From Streptomyces humicola (GTDB taxonomy: Bacteria > Actinomycetota > Actinomycetes > Streptomycetales > Streptomycetaceae), in contig NZ_JANFNG010000004.1 in assembly GCF_024436035.1 (NCBI RefSeq), positions 1-64,000 of the forward strand: DNA of 64,000 nt. Reading direction: 5' to 3'. Of this stretch, positions 2,233 to 52,334 are shown piece after piece. The number at the start of each line of letters is the position of its first letter. Position 1 is the first letter of the stretch. Made by a program: the position numbers and the translations under genes. The notes beneath the pieces are model-generated. The model saw only the letters and a program-made list of their open reading frames with translations. It had not been told where the DNA came from and searched no databases.

Positions 2233-3591
2233 ATGACGCCCACACTCGCCCACGACGCCGCCGCACGCCGCACGGCAGCGGTGCAGGCCGCGGCCGAACA
2301 GGAGCTCGTCGGTGAGGACCAGCCGGTGATCGGGCTGCTCGACGCGGCGGGTATCCAGGAGTCGGCGGCCGAGCTGCACGCGGCCTTCGCCACCCCCGGT
2401 ACGGCCGTCACGCACACCTTCGCGGTCAAGGCCGCCTCGCTCGTGCCGGTGCTGCGACTGCTCGCCGCCGAAGGTGTGGGCTGCGAGGTCGCCAGCGCCG
2501 GTGAGCTCGCCCTCGCCCGCGCCGCCGGGCTGCCCGCGGACCGCATCGTCTTCGACTCCCCCGCCAAGACCACCGCGGAGCTGCGCGCGGCCCTGGCCCT
2601 CGGCGTCGCCGTCAACGCCGACAACCCGCAGGAGCTGGCCCGTCTTGACGCCCTCGTCCGGGAGACCGGCACCGCGTCCCCGATCGGGCTGCGCGTCAAT
2701 CCGCAGGTCGGGGGCGGCACGATCGAGGCGCTCAGCACCGCGACCGCGACCTCCAAGTTCGGCTTCGCGCTGCGCGACGAGGGCGCGACCGACCGGATCG
2801 TCAGGGCCTACGCCGACCATCCCTGGCTCAGCCGCCTCCACGCCCACACCGGTTCCCAGGGTATCCCGCTGGAACTGATGGCCGTGGGTGTGCGCGCCGC
2901 GTACGAGCTCGCCGAACGCATCAACGTCCACGCCCGCGCCGCCACCGGCCGGCAACAGATCACCACCATCGACATCGGCGGCGGCCTGCCCGTCAACTTC
3001 GCCTCGGACGAGGTCACACCGACCTTCCGCGCCTATGCGGAGCTGCTGCGGACCACCGTGCCCGGTCTCTTCGACGGCCGTTATGCCCTGGTCACCGAGT
3101 TCGGCCGGTCGCTGGTCGCCAAGCACGGCACGATCCTCGCGCGCGTCGAGTACACCAAGACGGCGGGCGGACGCGCCCTCGCGATCACTCATGTGGGCGC
3201 CCAGGTCGCCACCCGTACAGTCTTCGACCCCGGATCGTGGCCGCTGCGAGTGCTCGCCTTCGACGCCAAGGGCCGCCCGAAGAGCGGCGAGCCGGTCGTG
3301 CAGGACGTGACCGGGCCCTGCTGCTTCGCGGGCGACATCGTGGCGCACCGGCGCGAACTCCCGCTGCTCGCCGAGGGCGACCTGGTCGCGCTGCCGGACA
3401 CGGGCGCGTACTACTTCTCCACGCACTACGCGTACAACTCGTTGCCACGGCCCGGGATCTACGGGTACGATGGCGACGCGAACGAGCCGCACGGCGTCCG
3501 ATTCACGACTGTGCGCGCCCCGCAGACCCTGGACGAGATCGTCGCGGAGAGCGGTTCCGCCAACGCCGACGCCCTCACCGGGCCGCGCTGA
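2233..3591 (+). CDS. Fold-type III PLP-dependent decarboxylase-like enzyme (Orn/DAP/Arg decarboxylase 2 family, Y4yA-like)
   Basis: A 452-residue relative of diaminopimelate and ornithine decarboxylases. The N-terminal alanine-racemase-like barrel has the PLP lysine in THTFAVKAASL, then GVGCEVASAGELALARAAG, the His of LHAHTGSQG, the phosphate-binding glycine loop DIGGGLPVNF, and EFGRSLVAKHG. The C-terminal beta domain shows GPCCFAGD (the catalytic cysteine region) and DTGAYYFSTHYAYNS. The substrate is unknown; the sequence looks more like the Y4yA/uncharacterised branch than LysA. Start: a track-length frame opens at 2128, but the ATG at 2233 fits the family start. No clear Shine-Dalgarno precedes it, so the start is uncertain. 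The 3' end overlaps the convergent membrane gene by 17 bp. Confidence 0.8.
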   Translation: MTPTLAHDAAARRTAAVQAAAEQELVGEDQPVIGLLDAAGIQESAAELHAAFATPGTAVTHTFAVKAASLVPVLRLLAAEGVGCEVASAGELALARAAGLPADRIVFDSPAKTTAELRAALALGVAVNADNPQELARLDALVRETGTASPIGLRVNPQVGGGTIEALSTATATSKFGFALRDEGATDRIVRAYADHPWLSRLHAHTGSQGIPLELMAVGVRAAYELAERINVHARAATGRQQITTIDIGGGLPVNFASDEVTPTFRAYAELLRTTVPGLFDGRYALVTEFGRSLVAKHGTILARVEYTKTAGGRALAITHVGAQVATRTVFDPGSWPLRVLAFDAKGRPKSGEPVVQDVTGPCCFAGDIVAHRRELPLLAEGDLVALPDTGAYYFSTHYAYNSLPRPGIYGYDGDANEPHGVRFTTVRAPQTLDEIVAESGSANADALTGPR

Positions 3592-4156
3592 CCGCTCTCC
3601 GCCTGGCCCCGCCGGGGCGGGCGTCACCCGCGACCGGTCCGGTGGTCAGGTACGACTTCACGTCCCGGCCCGCCGGGCCGCGGCGGCTCGCCCACTCCGG
3701 CCGCACCCACAGCAGCGCCTCGTTCCGGCGCTCCCAGCGCCCGATTGCCACCGCCTTCGCCCACAGCCCCGCGCCGAGCCCGGCGAGCAGCATGCCACCG
3801 GCCGCTGGGGCGGCGAGGGACGAGGCGACGGCGAGGGTGAGGGCAAGCAGCAGCCACCAGCGGCGCGCACGCAGCCACGCGCGCGCCGTCACGCGCCGGT
3901 CCTGCAGGATGACGGTCTTGGCGGCGCGCGTGGCGCCGTTCTCCAGCTCCGTATAGCGCCGACGGTGCACCAGGAACGCGGTGGCAGCCGCGACGAGGAA
4001 GAGCGCGGCTCCGGCGACGAGGCCGATCGTCCGCCCGGTGAACCCCGGCACGAACGCTCCGGCGAACGCCGCGATCGCGCCCAGCCACCAGCACCACAGC
4101 GCCGCCGTCCGCACCATCACCGCAACCCGAGCCAGCGCATACGCCCCGCGCCCCAC
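3575..4156 (-). CDS. Conserved hypothetical membrane protein
   Basis: 193 residues with about four hydrophobic segments in two pairs (roughly residues 17-33, 44-61, 98-114 and 116-133), separated by a basic loop with RRRYTELENGATRAAK and TARAWLRARRW. The C-terminal 60 residues are hydrophilic and Arg/Gly-rich. No enzymatic motif is visible and I do not recognise a named family. It is convergent with the PLP enzyme and overlaps its last 17 bp, so the two transcripts may interfere. The only in-frame upstream start is the ATG at 4156. Confidence 0.6.
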   Translation of the reverse strand: MGRGAYALARVAVMVRTAALWCWWLGAIAAFAGAFVPGFTGRTIGLVAGAALFLVAAATAFLVHRRRYTELENGATRAAKTVILQDRRVTARAWLRARRWWLLLALTLAVASSLAAPAAGGMLLAGLGAGLWAKAVAIGRWERRNEALLWVRPEWASRRGPAGRDVKSYLTTGPVAGDARPGGARRRAVSAAR

Positions 4157-4257
4157 GACCGCGCTCCTTCCCCATCCACCTGCTACAGGGCATCCGGTGC
4201 GGAGGGTACTCAGAAAATCTCAAAATTGCGTGAGGGTGCGGGGCGGTCGATGCGTGC

Positions 4258-5100
4258 TCACTCGACGAACAGACCACGCTCCGCCGCCCGTGCGTCGAAC
4301 TCCTCCAGCCTCGCCTGCGCGTCGGGCAGCTCGTCGCACATCGCCTCCAGCAGCACCCGGCCGAGCATCATCGGCGCGCACGCGGTGTCGAAGACCAAAC
4401 CGGTCCCGACCGCGGCAGGAAGCAGCAGGTCGGAGTGTTTGGCAACCGGCGCGAAGGAGCTGTCGGCGACGGTGACGACGGTGAGCCCCGCGCCCTTGGC
4501 GTACTCCAGCGCCGCGACCACCTCGCGCGGGTGGCGTGGCAGCGCGAAGCACAGCAGCGCGTTCGCGCCCGCGCGCACCGCCGCGTCGATCCGGTCGGCG
4601 AGCAGCGTGCCGCCCTCGTCGAGCAGTCGCACGTCCGGGTGCACCTTCGCCGCGAAGTAGGCGAATCCGCGCGCCTGTGGCCCCGCGGCTCGCAAGCCGA
4701 GCACCGGAAGCGGCTGGGAGAGGGCGAGCAGCCGTCCTGCCCGCGCCACCGGCTCCGGGTCGGCGAGCAGCGCGGCGAGGTGCCGCAGATTGTCGATCTC
4801 GGCGAGTACGGCCTGCTGGTACTCGTTGTCGGTGACGGCCTGCGTCTCCTGCGGTGCGGGTGCGACCTCGCGCAGATGCCGCCGGAGCGCCGGGTAGCCG
4901 TCGAAGCCCAGGGCGACCGCGAACCGGGTCACCGACGGCTGGCTCACCCCGGCCAGCTCGGCGACCTCGACGCTCGACAGGAACGGCGCATCCGCGGCCC
5001 TGCGCACCAGGCAGTGCGCGATCCGGCGCTGCGTCGGCGTGAGCCGGTGCCCGTCGAACATCCGCATCAAGCGCGCCGCTCCCCCGTCCTGCGTCGCCAT
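4258..5100 (-). CDS. MurR/RpiR family transcriptional regulator
   Basis: 280 residues: an N-terminal RpiR-type helix-turn-helix (LTPTQRRIAHCLVRRA, then SSVEVAELAGVSQPSVTRFAVALGFDGYPALRRHL, residues about 15-75) and a C-terminal SIS sugar-phosphate-type sensor domain (PLPVLGLRAAGPQARGFAY, then ALLCFALPRHPREVVAALEYAK and VVTVADSSFAPVAKHSD). The frame is open further upstream, but the ATG at 5100 has AGGAGGGTGCA directly in front and starts at the usual place. It lies near hutU and shares a TTCATTCA box with its promoter region, so it may control histidine use. That role is inference. Confidence 0.9.
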   Translation of the reverse strand: MATQDGGAARLMRMFDGHRLTPTQRRIAHCLVRRAADAPFLSSVEVAELAGVSQPSVTRFAVALGFDGYPALRRHLREVAPAPQETQAVTDNEYQQAVLAEIDNLRHLAALLADPEPVARAGRLLALSQPLPVLGLRAAGPQARGFAYFAAKVHPDVRLLDEGGTLLADRIDAAVRAGANALLCFALPRHPREVVAALEYAKGAGLTVVTVADSSFAPVAKHSDLLLPAAVGTGLVFDTACAPMMLGRVLLEAMCDELPDAQARLEEFDARAAERGLFVE

Positions 5101-22455: not shown

Positions 22456-23838
22456 TCAGGAGGCCTTGGCCTTCTCGGCCCTGCCCGGCGCGGGCTGGGT
22501 GGCCTTGGCCGCCGCGGCCGCCGTCACCGGCGCGGCCGCCTCGTAGAACTCCTCACGCGGGTTCTCCAGTGCGCCGAGCGCCACGACGTCGCGCTTGAGG
22601 AACATCGCGAGCGTCCAGTCGGCGAGCACCCGGAACTTCCGGTTGAAGGTCGGCACGGCCATGCCGTGGTAACCACGGTGGCAGTACCAGGCCAGCCGGC
22701 CCTTGAGGCGGATCTTGCCGAAGAGCAGGGCGACGCCCTTGTGCAGGCCGAGGCCGGCGACGGCACCCATGTTCTTGTGCTTGTACTCGTGCTGCGGGAA
22801 GCCCCGCATCCCGGAGATCACGTTGTCGCCGAGCACCTTGGCCTGACGCAGGGCGTGCTGCGCGTTCGGCGGGCACCAGGCGCCCTCGCCGGCCGCGAGG
22901 TCGGGCACCTGGGCATTGTCGCCGGCGGCCCAGATGTAGTCCGTGCCCTTGACCTGGAGCGTGGGGAGCGTGTCCACGTGGCCGCGCGGGCCGAGCGGGA
23001 CGCCGAAGTTGGCCAGCGCGGGGTTCGGCTTGACGCCCGCGGTCCATACGATGGTGGACGCATCGACTTCGAGCCCGTTGGCGAGCACCACGTGCTTGTC
23101 GATGCACGACTTCATGGACGTCTCGAGGTAGATCTCGATGCCGCGCTCGCGCAGGTGCTCGAGGCCCCACGTGCCGAGCTCCGGGCCGACCTCGGGGAGG
23201 ATGCGGTTGGCGGCCTCGACGAGGATGAACCGCATGTCCTCGCGCTTGACGTTCGTGTAGTACTTGCACGCGTCGCGAGCCATGTCCTCGACCTCGCCGA
23301 TGGTCTCGGCACCCGCGAAGCCGCCGCCGACGAAGACGAAGGTCAGCGCCTTGCGGCGGAGCTCCTCATCGGTGGTGGAGTCGGCCAGGTCGAGCTGTTC
23401 GAGGATGTGGTTGCGCAGGTCGACAGCCTCTTCGACGCCCTTCATGCCGATGCCGTTCTCGGCGAGGCCGGGGATCGGGAAGGTGCGGGAGACGGCGCCG
23501 AGCGCGACGACAAGATAGTCGAAGGGCAGCTCGTACTTTTCTCCGACGAGCGGCTCGATCACGGCCACCTTGCGGTCCTGGTCGACAGAGGTGACCCGGC
23601 CGGTGAGGACCTCCGCCTTGGGAAGCACGCGTCGCAGCGGAACCACGACGTGGCGCGGAGAGATGCTGCCGGCCGCAGCTTCGGGGAGGAAGGGCTGGTA
23701 CGTCATGTACGAGCGGGGGTCGACGACCGTGACGGTCGCCTCGCCGAACCGCATCTTCTTCAGGATGCGGCGCGCCGCGTACAGGCCGACGTAACCGCCG
23801 CCTACTACGAGGATCCGTGGACGCTCCGTGGTGCTCAT
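22456..23838 (-). CDS. ndh: Type II NADH dehydrogenase
   Basis: 460 residues: N-terminal FAD-binding VVGGGYVGLYAARRI, the central NADH-binding site FVFVGGGFAGAETIGE, and the C-terminal FAD contact IWAAGDNAQVPD. It passes electrons from NADH to menaquinone without proton pumping, at the inner face of the membrane; the Ala/Lys-rich tail is typical of Streptomyces members. ATG 23838 (MSTTERPRIL) fits the family start. An in-frame ATG at 23862 has a better ribosome site (GAGGGGGG), so the start is not settled. Two Rex-like boxes lie upstream. Confidence 0.92.
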   Translation of the reverse strand: MSTTERPRILVVGGGYVGLYAARRILKKMRFGEATVTVVDPRSYMTYQPFLPEAAAGSISPRHVVVPLRRVLPKAEVLTGRVTSVDQDRKVAVIEPLVGEKYELPFDYLVVALGAVSRTFPIPGLAENGIGMKGVEEAVDLRNHILEQLDLADSTTDEELRRKALTFVFVGGGFAGAETIGEVEDMARDACKYYTNVKREDMRFILVEAANRILPEVGPELGTWGLEHLRERGIEIYLETSMKSCIDKHVVLANGLEVDASTIVWTAGVKPNPALANFGVPLGPRGHVDTLPTLQVKGTDYIWAAGDNAQVPDLAAGEGAWCPPNAQHALRQAKVLGDNVISGMRGFPQHEYKHKNMGAVAGLGLHKGVALLFGKIRLKGRLAWYCHRGYHGMAVPTFNRKFRVLADWTLAMFLKRDVVALGALENPREEFYEAAAPVTAAAAAKATQPAPGRAEKAKAS

Positions 23839-23873
23839 GGACACGAGTATCCAGCACCCCATTGGGCCCCCCT

Positions 23874-23889
23874 CGTGAGCCCCTTCACA
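23874..23889. promoter_or_regulatory. Rex (ROP)-like operator next to ndh
   Basis: On the minus strand TGTGAAGGGGCTCACG fits the Rex consensus TGTGAA-N4-TTCACA in ten of twelve arm positions. It lies 36 bp before the ndh ATG at 23838. Rex senses the NADH/NAD+ ratio and represses respiratory genes in Streptomyces. Confidence 0.5.
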
Positions 23890-24132
23890 AGGTTCTTGCG
23901 GGGTTCTGCTACACTGCGCGATTTCGTGATCGACGCCACACCCGCCCCCGGAACCTCCTCTCGAGCCGGGACGTCCCGGGACCCCCTTGAGCAGCGACGA
24001 TCGGCCGCCGACCGGTAGGCTGCGGGGTCGCTAACCCTGCCGAAACAAGGGAGTTCGGCGCTCAGTTGCGAGGGATCGCGCTCCGACGGGGCCACGGGGC
24101 CAATGAATCTGCTCCATCAGACGGGAAGTTCA

Positions 24133-24148
24133 TGTGAATAATTTCACG
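24133..24148. promoter_or_regulatory. Second Rex (ROP)-like operator, upstream of ndh
   Basis: TGTGAATAATTTCACG fits TGTGAA-N4-TTCACA with one mismatch in the arms and sits inside a longer symmetric stretch with AAGTTC/GAACTT flanks (24126-24153). It is about 295 bp upstream of ndh and is strikingly AT-rich for this genome. The stretch 23863-24260 holds no other element I can support; a rightward TAGGCT at about 24016 leads to no visible gene. Confidence 0.55.
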
Positions 24149-24260
24149 AACTTTCTCGCGCGCCCCGCCAGGCCGTCCGAGAACGCCGCGCCGCGGCCTG
24201 CCGTCGACCCATCGGTAGACGGCAAACCGCGGCGCACAAGGACACCCCTGACCGTGCGCG

Positions 24261-24440
24261 CTAGCGCTCCAGCTCGCGCTCGATGTCCTGCTCGCTGCAC
24301 TGGTCGAGCTTCTGGGTCTGCTCGTTGAGGACGCTGTAGCGGGCCGCCTTGCCCTTGCCCTGGACCTCCTGGATCCTGCCGATCTGCTTCACGCGCTGAT
24401 CGTCCCGGTACTCGACGCGCTCTCCCATGTTATGGGGCAT
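24261..24440 (-). CDS. Small conserved hypothetical protein
   Basis: 59 residues, highly charged: VEYRDDQRVKQIGRIQEVQGKGKAARY, then LDQCSEQDIERELER. It resembles a small beta-rich (Tudor/SH3-like) N-terminal part with an acidic helical tail and has no known motif. ATG 24440 has GGGAG 6 bases upstream and is preferred to the TTG at 24452. It stands between ppx and ndh, in the same direction as both. Confidence 0.6.
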   Translation of the reverse strand: MPHNMGERVEYRDDQRVKQIGRIQEVQGKGKAARYSVLNEQTQKLDQCSEQDIERELER

Positions 24441-24629
24441 GAGTTCTCCCAAAGATCGATGGAGGGGAGCAGGAGGTCGCCGGCCGGATCACCGGGGGCG
24501 GTCCCTCCTGCGGCGCACACTGCCGATCGCGCGGCGCCGTGGCCATCACATCCGACCGGCGCGTCACCGGCGACCGCAGTGGTCCGGACGGGTGAACGAC
24601 GGCGGGCGCCCCCGGCCCTGACTCTCATA

Positions 24630-51749: not shown

Positions 51750-52334
51750 TCAACTGTTGTAGGTGGACTGCGCGCGCTCCAGACCGTCCTCGATGAGCGA
51801 CTCGACCGCGTCGGCGGCGCGGTCCACGAACCACTCCAACTCCTTGCGCTCGGCCGCGGAGAAGTCCTTGAGCACGAAGGCGGCCACCTCCATCCGGCCG
51901 GGCGGACGGCCGATGCCACACCGCACCCGCAGATAGTCGGGACCCAGCGACTTGGTGATCGACTTCAGGCCGTTGTGACCGTTGTCACCGCCGCCCTTCT
52001 TCAACCGCAGCGTCGCATAGTCGATGTCGAGCTCGTCATGGACGGCGATGATCCGCTCGACCGGAACCTTGTAGAAGTCGCGCAGCGCCGTCACCGGACC
52101 GCCGGACAGGTTCATGTACGTCATCGGCTTGGCCAGCACCACGCGCTGCCCGCCGATGCGGCCCTCGACCACCTGGGCCCGGGACTTGTGCGACTTGAAA
52201 CGGCCGCCGATGCGCCCGGCCAGCAGGTCGGCCACCATGAAGCCGATGTTGTGGCGGTTGCCCGCGTACTCGGGCCCGGGGTTGCCGAGCCCGGCCACGA
52301 GCCAGGGCCCCTCCGGGGCGGGGGAACTGCTCAT
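51750..52334 (-). CDS. pth: Peptidyl-tRNA hydrolase
   Basis: 194 residues. [22 protein letters not shown] contains the catalytic His and binding Asn. Other landmarks: [43 protein letters not shown] (catalytic Asp and the GHNGL loop) and RVRCGIGRP. It releases tRNA from stalled peptidyl-tRNA. Downstream of rplY in the same direction, as in most actinobacteria. Confidence 0.96.

Follow-up and report, generated by a model that had tools for sequence, protein, structure and literature searches.

Why should the gene for a type II NADH dehydrogenase, ndh, be preceded by two boxes that resemble operators of the regulator Rex, and why should these lie about 260 bp apart? The first-pass annotation of this Streptomyces humicola DNA (here called the window: the whole stretch analysed, 64,000 nucleotides at positions 1 to 64,000 of contig NZ_JANFNG010000004.1) had suggested either looping between the two sites or a separate promoter for each. 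Both boxes were present at the places it gave, and the distance of about 260 bp that it named proved to be 259 bp from start to start. The gene and the boxes are as follows.

22456 to 23838, minus strand: ndh, type II NADH dehydrogenase (open reading frame, similarity to solved structures, conserved start)
23873 to 23890, minus strand: predicted proximal operator for Rex (weak), position -52 relative to the ATG; TTGTGAAGGGGCTCACGA
24132 to 24149, minus strand: predicted distal operator for Rex (strong), position -311 relative to the ATG; TCGTGAAATTATTCACAT

The gene and its two Rex-like boxes

The ndh product was closest among solved structures to NDH-2 enzymes (5na1_A, E 3.8e-48; 4nwz_A, E 1.9e-42), and its predicted identity as NDH-2 is based on similarity to these enzymes over the FAD/NAD domains. 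The start was set by ATGAGCACCACGGAGCG, which is kept in relatives as MSTTERPR, and the ATG is thus likely to be that at 23838 and not 23862. A gene resembling that for exopolyphosphatase (ppx) lies upstream on the same strand, its best model being TIGR03706 with a score below the cut-off of that model, and a 63-amino-acid open reading frame between the two genes (24261 to 24452, minus strand) had no match in NCBIfam. In several relatives the ppx-like gene ends close before the distal box, and in several it leaves no room there for the 63-amino-acid frame. In loci of genus g7 (for example, L051, L052, and L057) the ppx-like frame stops inside the distal box, 6 bp past its start, so that the operator overlaps the end of the coding sequence. 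An RNA element before ndh was considered and rejected: Rfam models run over the upstream region gave a single sub-threshold match, RF03738 at 24184 to 24244, which we took as chance given its score of 21.9 bits against a cut-off of 90.

Each box differs from the Streptomyces Rex consensus TTGTGAANNNNTTCACAA at 2 of 14 positions. A search of the window alone with two mismatches allowed did not exceed chance (7 matches, 4.55 expected). Given that such window-only statistics were indecisive, we made use of the whole genome and of relatives. The genome (7.07 Mb) contains 10 sites with at most two mismatches, two of which stand before ndh; a pair at the spacing of 259 bp would be expected about 0.003 times by chance, according to simple arithmetic. 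With up to three mismatches allowed, there were 41 sites for the consensus compared with 12 for the reversed pattern. A palindrome elsewhere in the window, TGTGACCGTTGTCACC at 51974 to 51989, has two mismatches from the searched core.

The genome also encodes Rex itself (PF06971 match at C76, 72.1 bits), as did all 40 family genomes tested, and one of the 10 sites (C76:12235) lies directly before rex, the Rex DNA-binding domain being located at C76:12374. Three others equal or resemble the wblE, atpI, and nuoA sites of S. avermitilis, these names being assigned by site similarity only, and another (C78:143511) is at an open reading frame that we take to be cytochrome bd subunit I.

We scored the boxes with a position weight matrix built from ten S. 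avermitilis Rex sites, with ndh2 left out; the training sites themselves scored 16.9 to 28.6. The distal box of the window scored 24.3, a value reached by none of 1,554,720 background 18-mers, and the proximal box 20.5, a value reached by 4 of them. Across all boxes tested, distal scores were 23.8 to 28.0 (again with none of the 1,554,720 background 18-mers as high) and proximal scores 14.6 to 20.5. The far site is therefore the strong one. The distal box had been described as unusually AT-rich and as embedded in a longer palindrome. The first description holds here, where the core is TAAT, but is particular to this strain, given that in most of the relatives retrieved the core is TTTC or GTTC; the longer palindrome exists but is one base out of register. 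Outside the distal core, conservation is found mainly in TTCGTGAA..TTCACA.G.

The available part of a study of the S. avermitilis Rex regulon (PMC5355995) reports that Rex bound an ndh2 (SAV3529) probe in gel shifts (EMSA), and its Table 1 gives the ndh2 ROP as TTGTGAAGGGGCGCACGA, located 119 from the annotated start. The proximal box of the window differs by one base from this published ROP and is the orthologous site. The genome G236, which we took as S. avermitilis, has the ndh2 operator at the exact published coordinate, C1:4369478. It also has a distal box, TCGTGAAGTTCTTCACAA, with one mismatch and 273 bp beyond the proximal operator, which places it approximately 392 nt before the annotated ndh2 start (273 plus the published 119). 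As described in the accessible portion of the same study (PMC5355995), the scan for Rex motifs reached 350 bp upstream and yielded two motifs with one mismatch; a box at approximately 392 nt is beyond that reach and for this reason missing from the scan. The distance of 119 implies that the annotated start of this gene (G236, L215) is approximately 67 nt downstream of the conserved ATG and is probably misannotated. Our results thus add a strong predicted Rex operator that lies beyond the 350-bp reach of the published regulon scan, as far as the available text shows (PMC5355995).

Conservation in the family and the class

The distal box was found with at most two mismatches in 26 of 26 named relatives, and the proximal box was at its usual place with at most four mismatches in 25 of them. 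Among 394 Streptomycetaceae genomes, a pattern for the box pair matched in 322, and a longer permitted range added 12 of the remaining 72 to give 334. In 45 of the other 60 genomes the distal box was located at a set distance from the motif that marks the ndh start, and 13 of the last 15 had it at three or fewer mismatches, so that the distal box is present in 392 of 394 genomes. The two genomes that do not count are L298, in which the contig ends before the region, and one without an ndh match at 1e-200. The reversed pattern gave no match in the box searches of the family genomes. The ndh start behind the box pairs was checked in part: the start motif was detected in 122 of 129 sequences (from the window, named loci, and unnamed loci; the 7 loci that failed were left out) and in 80 of 80 longer regions. 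The presence of two Rex-operator-like boxes before ndh, as first annotated, is thus borne out by rarity in the genome and, decisively, by conservation.

The proximal box is less constant. It was missing from 7 of 30 loci in one set (seven or more mismatches) and from 5 of 14 in another (none at four or fewer mismatches). In the Embleya-like loci L023 and L152 to L155, the proximal operator has been lost and the distal box fits the Rex site almost perfectly. A palindrome, TTGTGCATTTGTGCACGG, is located at -107 in L023, with its 3' part visible in L152 to L155; it is weakly Rex-like, with a matrix score of 14.0.

We also examined 25 ndh relatives elsewhere in the class, 22 of which were readable. 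Four of these had one perfect Rex operator, three at -46 or -47 and one at approximately -116; the other 18 showed no Rex operator at three or fewer mismatches within 480 bp, and a second operator was found in none of the 22. The loci L186, L187, and L188, from another family of the class, have the perfect single operator at -46/-47 before ndh and no distal box. The ancestral arrangement may thus have been a single proximal operator, with the distal one added later throughout the family.

Stepwise change in the distance from the distal box to the ndh start

Across the family, the distance from the distal box to the ATG ranges from 234 to 379 bp. The values are not spread evenly: 224 distinct rows gave 234, 256, 262 (one row), 286, 289, 298 to 302, 311, 313, and 314 in the shorter part of the range and 322 to 326, 334 to 338, 344 to 346, 348, 354 to 357, 366, 368, and 379 in the longer part. 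Match lengths for the box pair were taken from 310 of the 322 first pair matches (12 matched genomes are not included). In genus g9 (Streptomyces) they fell in two groups, 287 to 290 (103 rows) and 299 to 302 (111 rows), with none of the 214 rows at 291 to 298. The extended search added 312 in g9, 318 (two) in g11, and 309 (four), 310, 319, 320 (two), and 330 in the Kitasatospora-like g14. A pile-up at 308 in g14 had been suspected to be an effect of the pattern cut-off, a possibility rejected by these lengths of 309 to 330; 308 is a real mode, approximately 4 bp off the Streptomyces rung and itself on a ladder of approximately 11 bp.

At least 27 switches of length cluster occur on a tree built from 150 ndh genes. 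To keep related genomes from being counted more than once, we compared 33 path-disjoint sister pairs, which share no branch of the FastTree tree, and counted changes of 4 bp or more. The changes were 10 bp (4 pairs), 11 bp (9), and 12 bp (11), followed by 22, 22, 23, 25, 25, 32, 66, 78, and 106 bp, so that 24 of the 33 tree-independent changes were of 10 to 12 bp. The best period was 11.25 bp (bootstrap range, 10.75 to 11.75) with a coherence of 0.80, and none of 20,000 sets of uniform random jumps was as coherent. Thirty of the 33 changes were within 2.5 bp of whole turns, a criterion that chance passes approximately 45% of the time; those off phase were 25, 25, and 106 bp. For 23 pairs analysed earlier the best period was 11.15 bp, and none of 20,000 sets was as coherent, whether the random jumps were uniform or geometric. 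A second set of 80 genomes of the genus Streptomyces, analysed as 20-kb regions and sharing 17 genomes with the earlier set, yielded 16 jumps, of which 14 were of 10 to 12 bp, one was 23 bp, and one was an off-phase 26 bp (0 of 5,000). A Wenjunlia pair (250 and 254) represents a small, unphased change.

Four other intergenic lengths were analysed as controls on the same tree, with values outside set length limits and jumps of more than 70 bp left out. No period was detected for tgl-eno (76 genomes), eno-divIC (78), divIC-DUF501 (78), or ndh-cfa (70), for which null sets were as coherent in 2,895 to 4,304 of 5,000 cases; the standard deviations of these lengths were 27 to 65 bp, compared with 7.8 bp for the distance from the distal box to the ATG. 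A fifth control, the distance from the ppx stop to the distal box, was weakly periodic in a first set (41 pairs, 3 of 5,000). This signal was not confirmed in a second set (49 genomes; best period, 10.4; 258 of 5,000), and we rejected phasing of that distance, although the result counts against a clean control. Coding constraint on the interval was likewise rejected, given that steps of 10 to 12 bp with a scatter of 1 to 2 bp break the reading frame.

The changes in length can be placed with the help of a set of elements conserved near the ATG, whose counterparts in the window are as follows.

23846 to 23851, minus strand: GATACT, a -10-like hexamer 7 nt before the ATG, putative promoter element
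23907 to 23912, minus strand: GTAGCA, promoter-like and conserved, located 23 bp upstream of the proximal box
23950 to 23955, minus strand: GGTTCC, conserved element of the module
23988 to 23995, minus strand: GCTGCTCA, counterpart of CAGCTCA, conserved, upstream edge of the module
23996 to 24131, no strand assigned: variable zone between the distal box and the promoter module, changing in length by helical steps in relatives (limits according to our reading)

The arrangement CAG-17-ACAACG-22-GGTTCC-26-GTCAC-20-TAGCA-21-proximal-40-ATACT-12-ATG was almost constant in the 53 of 138 Streptomyces-genus rows in which every element was found. The exceptions among these were one row with 28 instead of 17 at the first step (+11) and four rows with 25 instead of 26 at the third. 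Given that the module is nearly rigid, length changes fall mostly between the distal box and CAG. The ATACT element was 12 nt before the ATG in the 65 rows, of 75 from the genus Streptomyces, in which the test found it, and likewise in all 53 complete rows for the module, a position that would put the transcript start near the ATG itself; the ndh mRNA may thus be leaderless. The Streptomyces module elements before ndh (positions 23846 to 24000 in the window) are CAGCTCA, TTGACAACG, GGTTCC, ATGACCTGGGTCAC, and GCAGTGTAGCA, and the window's own copy of the module has no clear ACAACG. On the opposite strand, the module contains GGAACC-N16-CGTTG, which in our judgment resembles a promoter for an ECF sigma factor.

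Pairwise alignments showed that several jumps are sums of smaller gaps, such as 7 + 4 + 7 + 15 = 33 for L063 versus L049; L105 and L103 differ by one single gap of 11, the placement of gaps in such DNA being uncertain. The A+T content of the 140 bp after the distal box oscillates with a spectral peak near 10 bp. In Streptomyces (138 sequences) the peak was at 10.2 bp, with a power of 3.50 compared with 1.40 for the largest of 200 shuffles. Peaks beyond the shuffles were also obtained for genus g7 (10.6 bp; 4.39 versus 1.82), Kitasatospora-like genomes (10.0 bp; 3.12 versus 2.29), g3 (9.9 bp; 6.47 versus 2.15), and the relatives of the window (10.6 bp; 3.08 versus 2.60); four Embleya-like sequences gave a peak at 10.8 bp that did not exceed the shuffles (3.91 versus 4.49). 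The phase of the oscillation was locked to the distal box in Streptomyces (R of 0.93), a value that does not represent 138 independent observations because the sequences are related. Three control zones showed a power of 1.44 to 1.74 and R of 0.06 to 0.36, with two of them slightly above their shuffles. Within the zone the maxima of A and T fall at similar phases and those of C and G on the opposite side, and there is some asymmetry between the strands. Response regulators of the PhoP type bind arrays of 11-nt direct repeats. We consider such an array the less likely explanation of the zone, given that the base phases fit bendability better.

Candidate explanations of the phased distance

A distal operator that keeps its helical face relative to the promoter while located 230 to 380 bp upstream is best explained by a loop. 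The looping proposed in the first-pass annotation is thus supported by comparison, in that the distance from the distal box to the ATG changes mostly by about one helical turn. The simplest actor for such a loop is Rex on both operators, and a strong distal operator combined with a weak proximal one is the arrangement in which a loop pays. From the sequences we infer that Rex binds the distal box, that a loop forms, and that its partner is Rex on the proximal operator. The far operator, approximately 20 to 34 helical turns from the ATG, would be brought to the promoter module with its weaker Rex operator. When NADH is low, Rex on both operators would close the loop and repress ndh; NADH would release Rex and open the loop, with the result that more NADH dehydrogenase would be made. 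Our best explanation, to which we assign about an even chance of being right, is that the strong, family-wide distal Rex operator controls ndh by forming a phased loop of DNA in which the weak proximal operator is its partner.

The nature of the partner is the point at which another explanation comes closest. Genomes without a recognizable proximal operator keep the phase, with the distal box near the ladder in Embleya-like genomes (-334, -335, and -345), in g2 (-357 and -368), and in g11, where one genome has it at -366 and its relatives at -354. The phasing partner may therefore be the promoter complex and not proximal Rex. It is possible, although we consider it the less probable reading, that distal Rex, through a phased loop, contacts RNA polymerase or some other factor bound at the promoter module and that the proximal box is a separate, steric operator. 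The within-group differences of 10 to 12 bp (334/335/345, 357/368, and 354/366) in groups lacking the proximal operator speak for such a partner, as do the near rigidity of the module in the 53 of 138 Streptomyces-genus rows with every element and a residual spread that is slightly smaller to ACAACG/GGTTCC than to the proximal box (standard deviation of 0.46 versus 0.54), a difference based on few genomes. On the other hand, a match to the proximal box was obtained for 334 of 394 genomes, which suggests that it is important, and the groups that lack it may have replacement sites. In such genomes the partner may thus be either the promoter complex or a replacement site such as the Embleya-like palindrome at -107 with its score of 14.0. 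In L302 (g2), two strong Rex boxes are located 60 bp apart, at -262 (off the ladder) and -202 (near it), with no proximal box at four or fewer mismatches.

It is unlikely that the distal box is read not by Rex but by a different regulator that recognizes a similar sequence, for example a protein of the CRP family. The CRP-type consensus, TGTGA-N6-TCACA, has the same geometry as the distal box. A study of Shewanella reports, according to its title, control of NADH dehydrogenase genes by Crp (PMC12210985), which adds to the case for such a regulator. However, the distal core keeps the inner pair of the Rex site, GTGAA..TTCAC, and the distal boxes score 23.8 to 28.0 on the Rex matrix, like the ten training sites (16.9 to 28.6). 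Furthermore, ndh2 is a Rex target by EMSA in S. avermitilis, according to the part of that report available (PMC5355995).

We regard as very unlikely the idea that the steps of approximately 11 bp arose by mutation or shared ancestry and not by selection, with short, imperfect 11-bp repeats slipping by one unit. Tandem Repeats Finder at a low threshold did give matches in 39 of 213 segments, with 11 as the commonest period (19 of 53 matches), and one neighbouring distance, that from the ppx stop to the distal box, was once weakly periodic. But such repeats are absent from 174 of the 213 segments, several jumps are made up of gaps that differ in size, and the length changes recur on the tree. 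Repeat matches were found in the three control zones as well, in two of them more often than before ndh (26 of 77 and 23 of 68 sequences, and 11 of 77 in the third, compared with 15 of 80), yet the control lengths show no period.

The most improbable reading is that each box serves a promoter of its own and the two do not interact, two promoters having first been proposed as an alternative to looping. The module may indeed comprise two or more promoters (at GTAGCA and at GATACT, the latter 7 nt before the ATG), but the fixed promoter-like elements sit in that module by the ATG, and no conserved promoter-like element was seen flanking the distal box in relatives. A sigma-70 consensus scan of 23800 to 24500 detected neither promoters nor terminators, although it also fails to pick up the supposed promoters of the module. 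Independent promoters, moreover, need no whole-turn distances.

With regard to the loop itself, we think it probable, if with moderate confidence, that Rex builds a redox-gated loop at ndh throughout the family, and that selection has kept the helical face of the far operator while the length changed at least 27 times within a span of 145 bp, in DNA with an A+T periodicity of approximately 10 bp that would favour bending. Relaxed DNA has a helical repeat of 10.5 bp, which is outside the bootstrap range of 10.75 to 11.75. The in vivo repeats fitted from lac loops, as given in the available part of the modelling study, are 10.95 to 11.60 bp (PMC1762422), and the period of approximately 11.25 bp agrees with them. 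If the loop is real, evolution in the family amounts to a natural phasing experiment, from which the in vivo helical repeat of GC-rich Streptomyces DNA can be estimated as approximately 11.25 bp. The comparison provides evidence for control of respiration by an NADH sensor by way of a phased loop, and a search for intergenic lengths that change only in steps of approximately 11 bp across many genomes could serve as a general test for looping.

The gal and araBAD operons of Escherichia coli have operator pairs that form loops. The ndh arrangement resembles such E. coli pairs, including that of lac as modelled in the text available (PMC1762422), in its combination of a strong far operator with a weaker operator at the promoter, its dependence on helical phase, and its repeat of approximately 11 bp in vivo. 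It differs from them in that the evidence for phase comes from natural variation among 394 genomes, the spacing between operators is approximately 16 to 29 turns, and the effector would be NADH. To our knowledge, Rex has so far been seen as a simple steric repressor, and we know of no bridging Rex tetramer. Schau in 2004 and Gyan in 2006 reportedly described control of ndh and cydABCD by Rex in Bacillus subtilis, and several Rex sites are said to act at cydABCD; the ndh of Streptomycetaceae would likewise be a case of an NADH dehydrogenase under Rex, in a different phylum. In the available parts of the literature searched (including PMC5355995, PMC2883068, PMC6391272, PMC7602649, PMC4398421, and PMC1762422), we found no Rex looping, paired Rex operators, Rex tetramer, or helical phasing by comparative genomics; the S. 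coelicolor paper of 2003, the comparative paper of 2012, and the B. subtilis Rex papers were outside the scope of this search, and an earlier mention is possible.

Both boxes resemble the Streptomyces ROPs described for S. avermitilis cydA1, rex, nuoA1, atpI, wblE, and ndh2 in the available part of the regulon study (PMC5355995), with the same 18-bp consensus, respiratory targets, and the regulator gene present. They differ in number: the portion of that study available reports one ROP per promoter plus half-sites, and the distal ndh box is absent from its Table 1 (PMC5355995). A further possible Rex target is suggested by a one-mismatch site at G000:C33:142316-142333 (L032), which adjoins an open reading frame that by eye resembles a CBS-domain protein.
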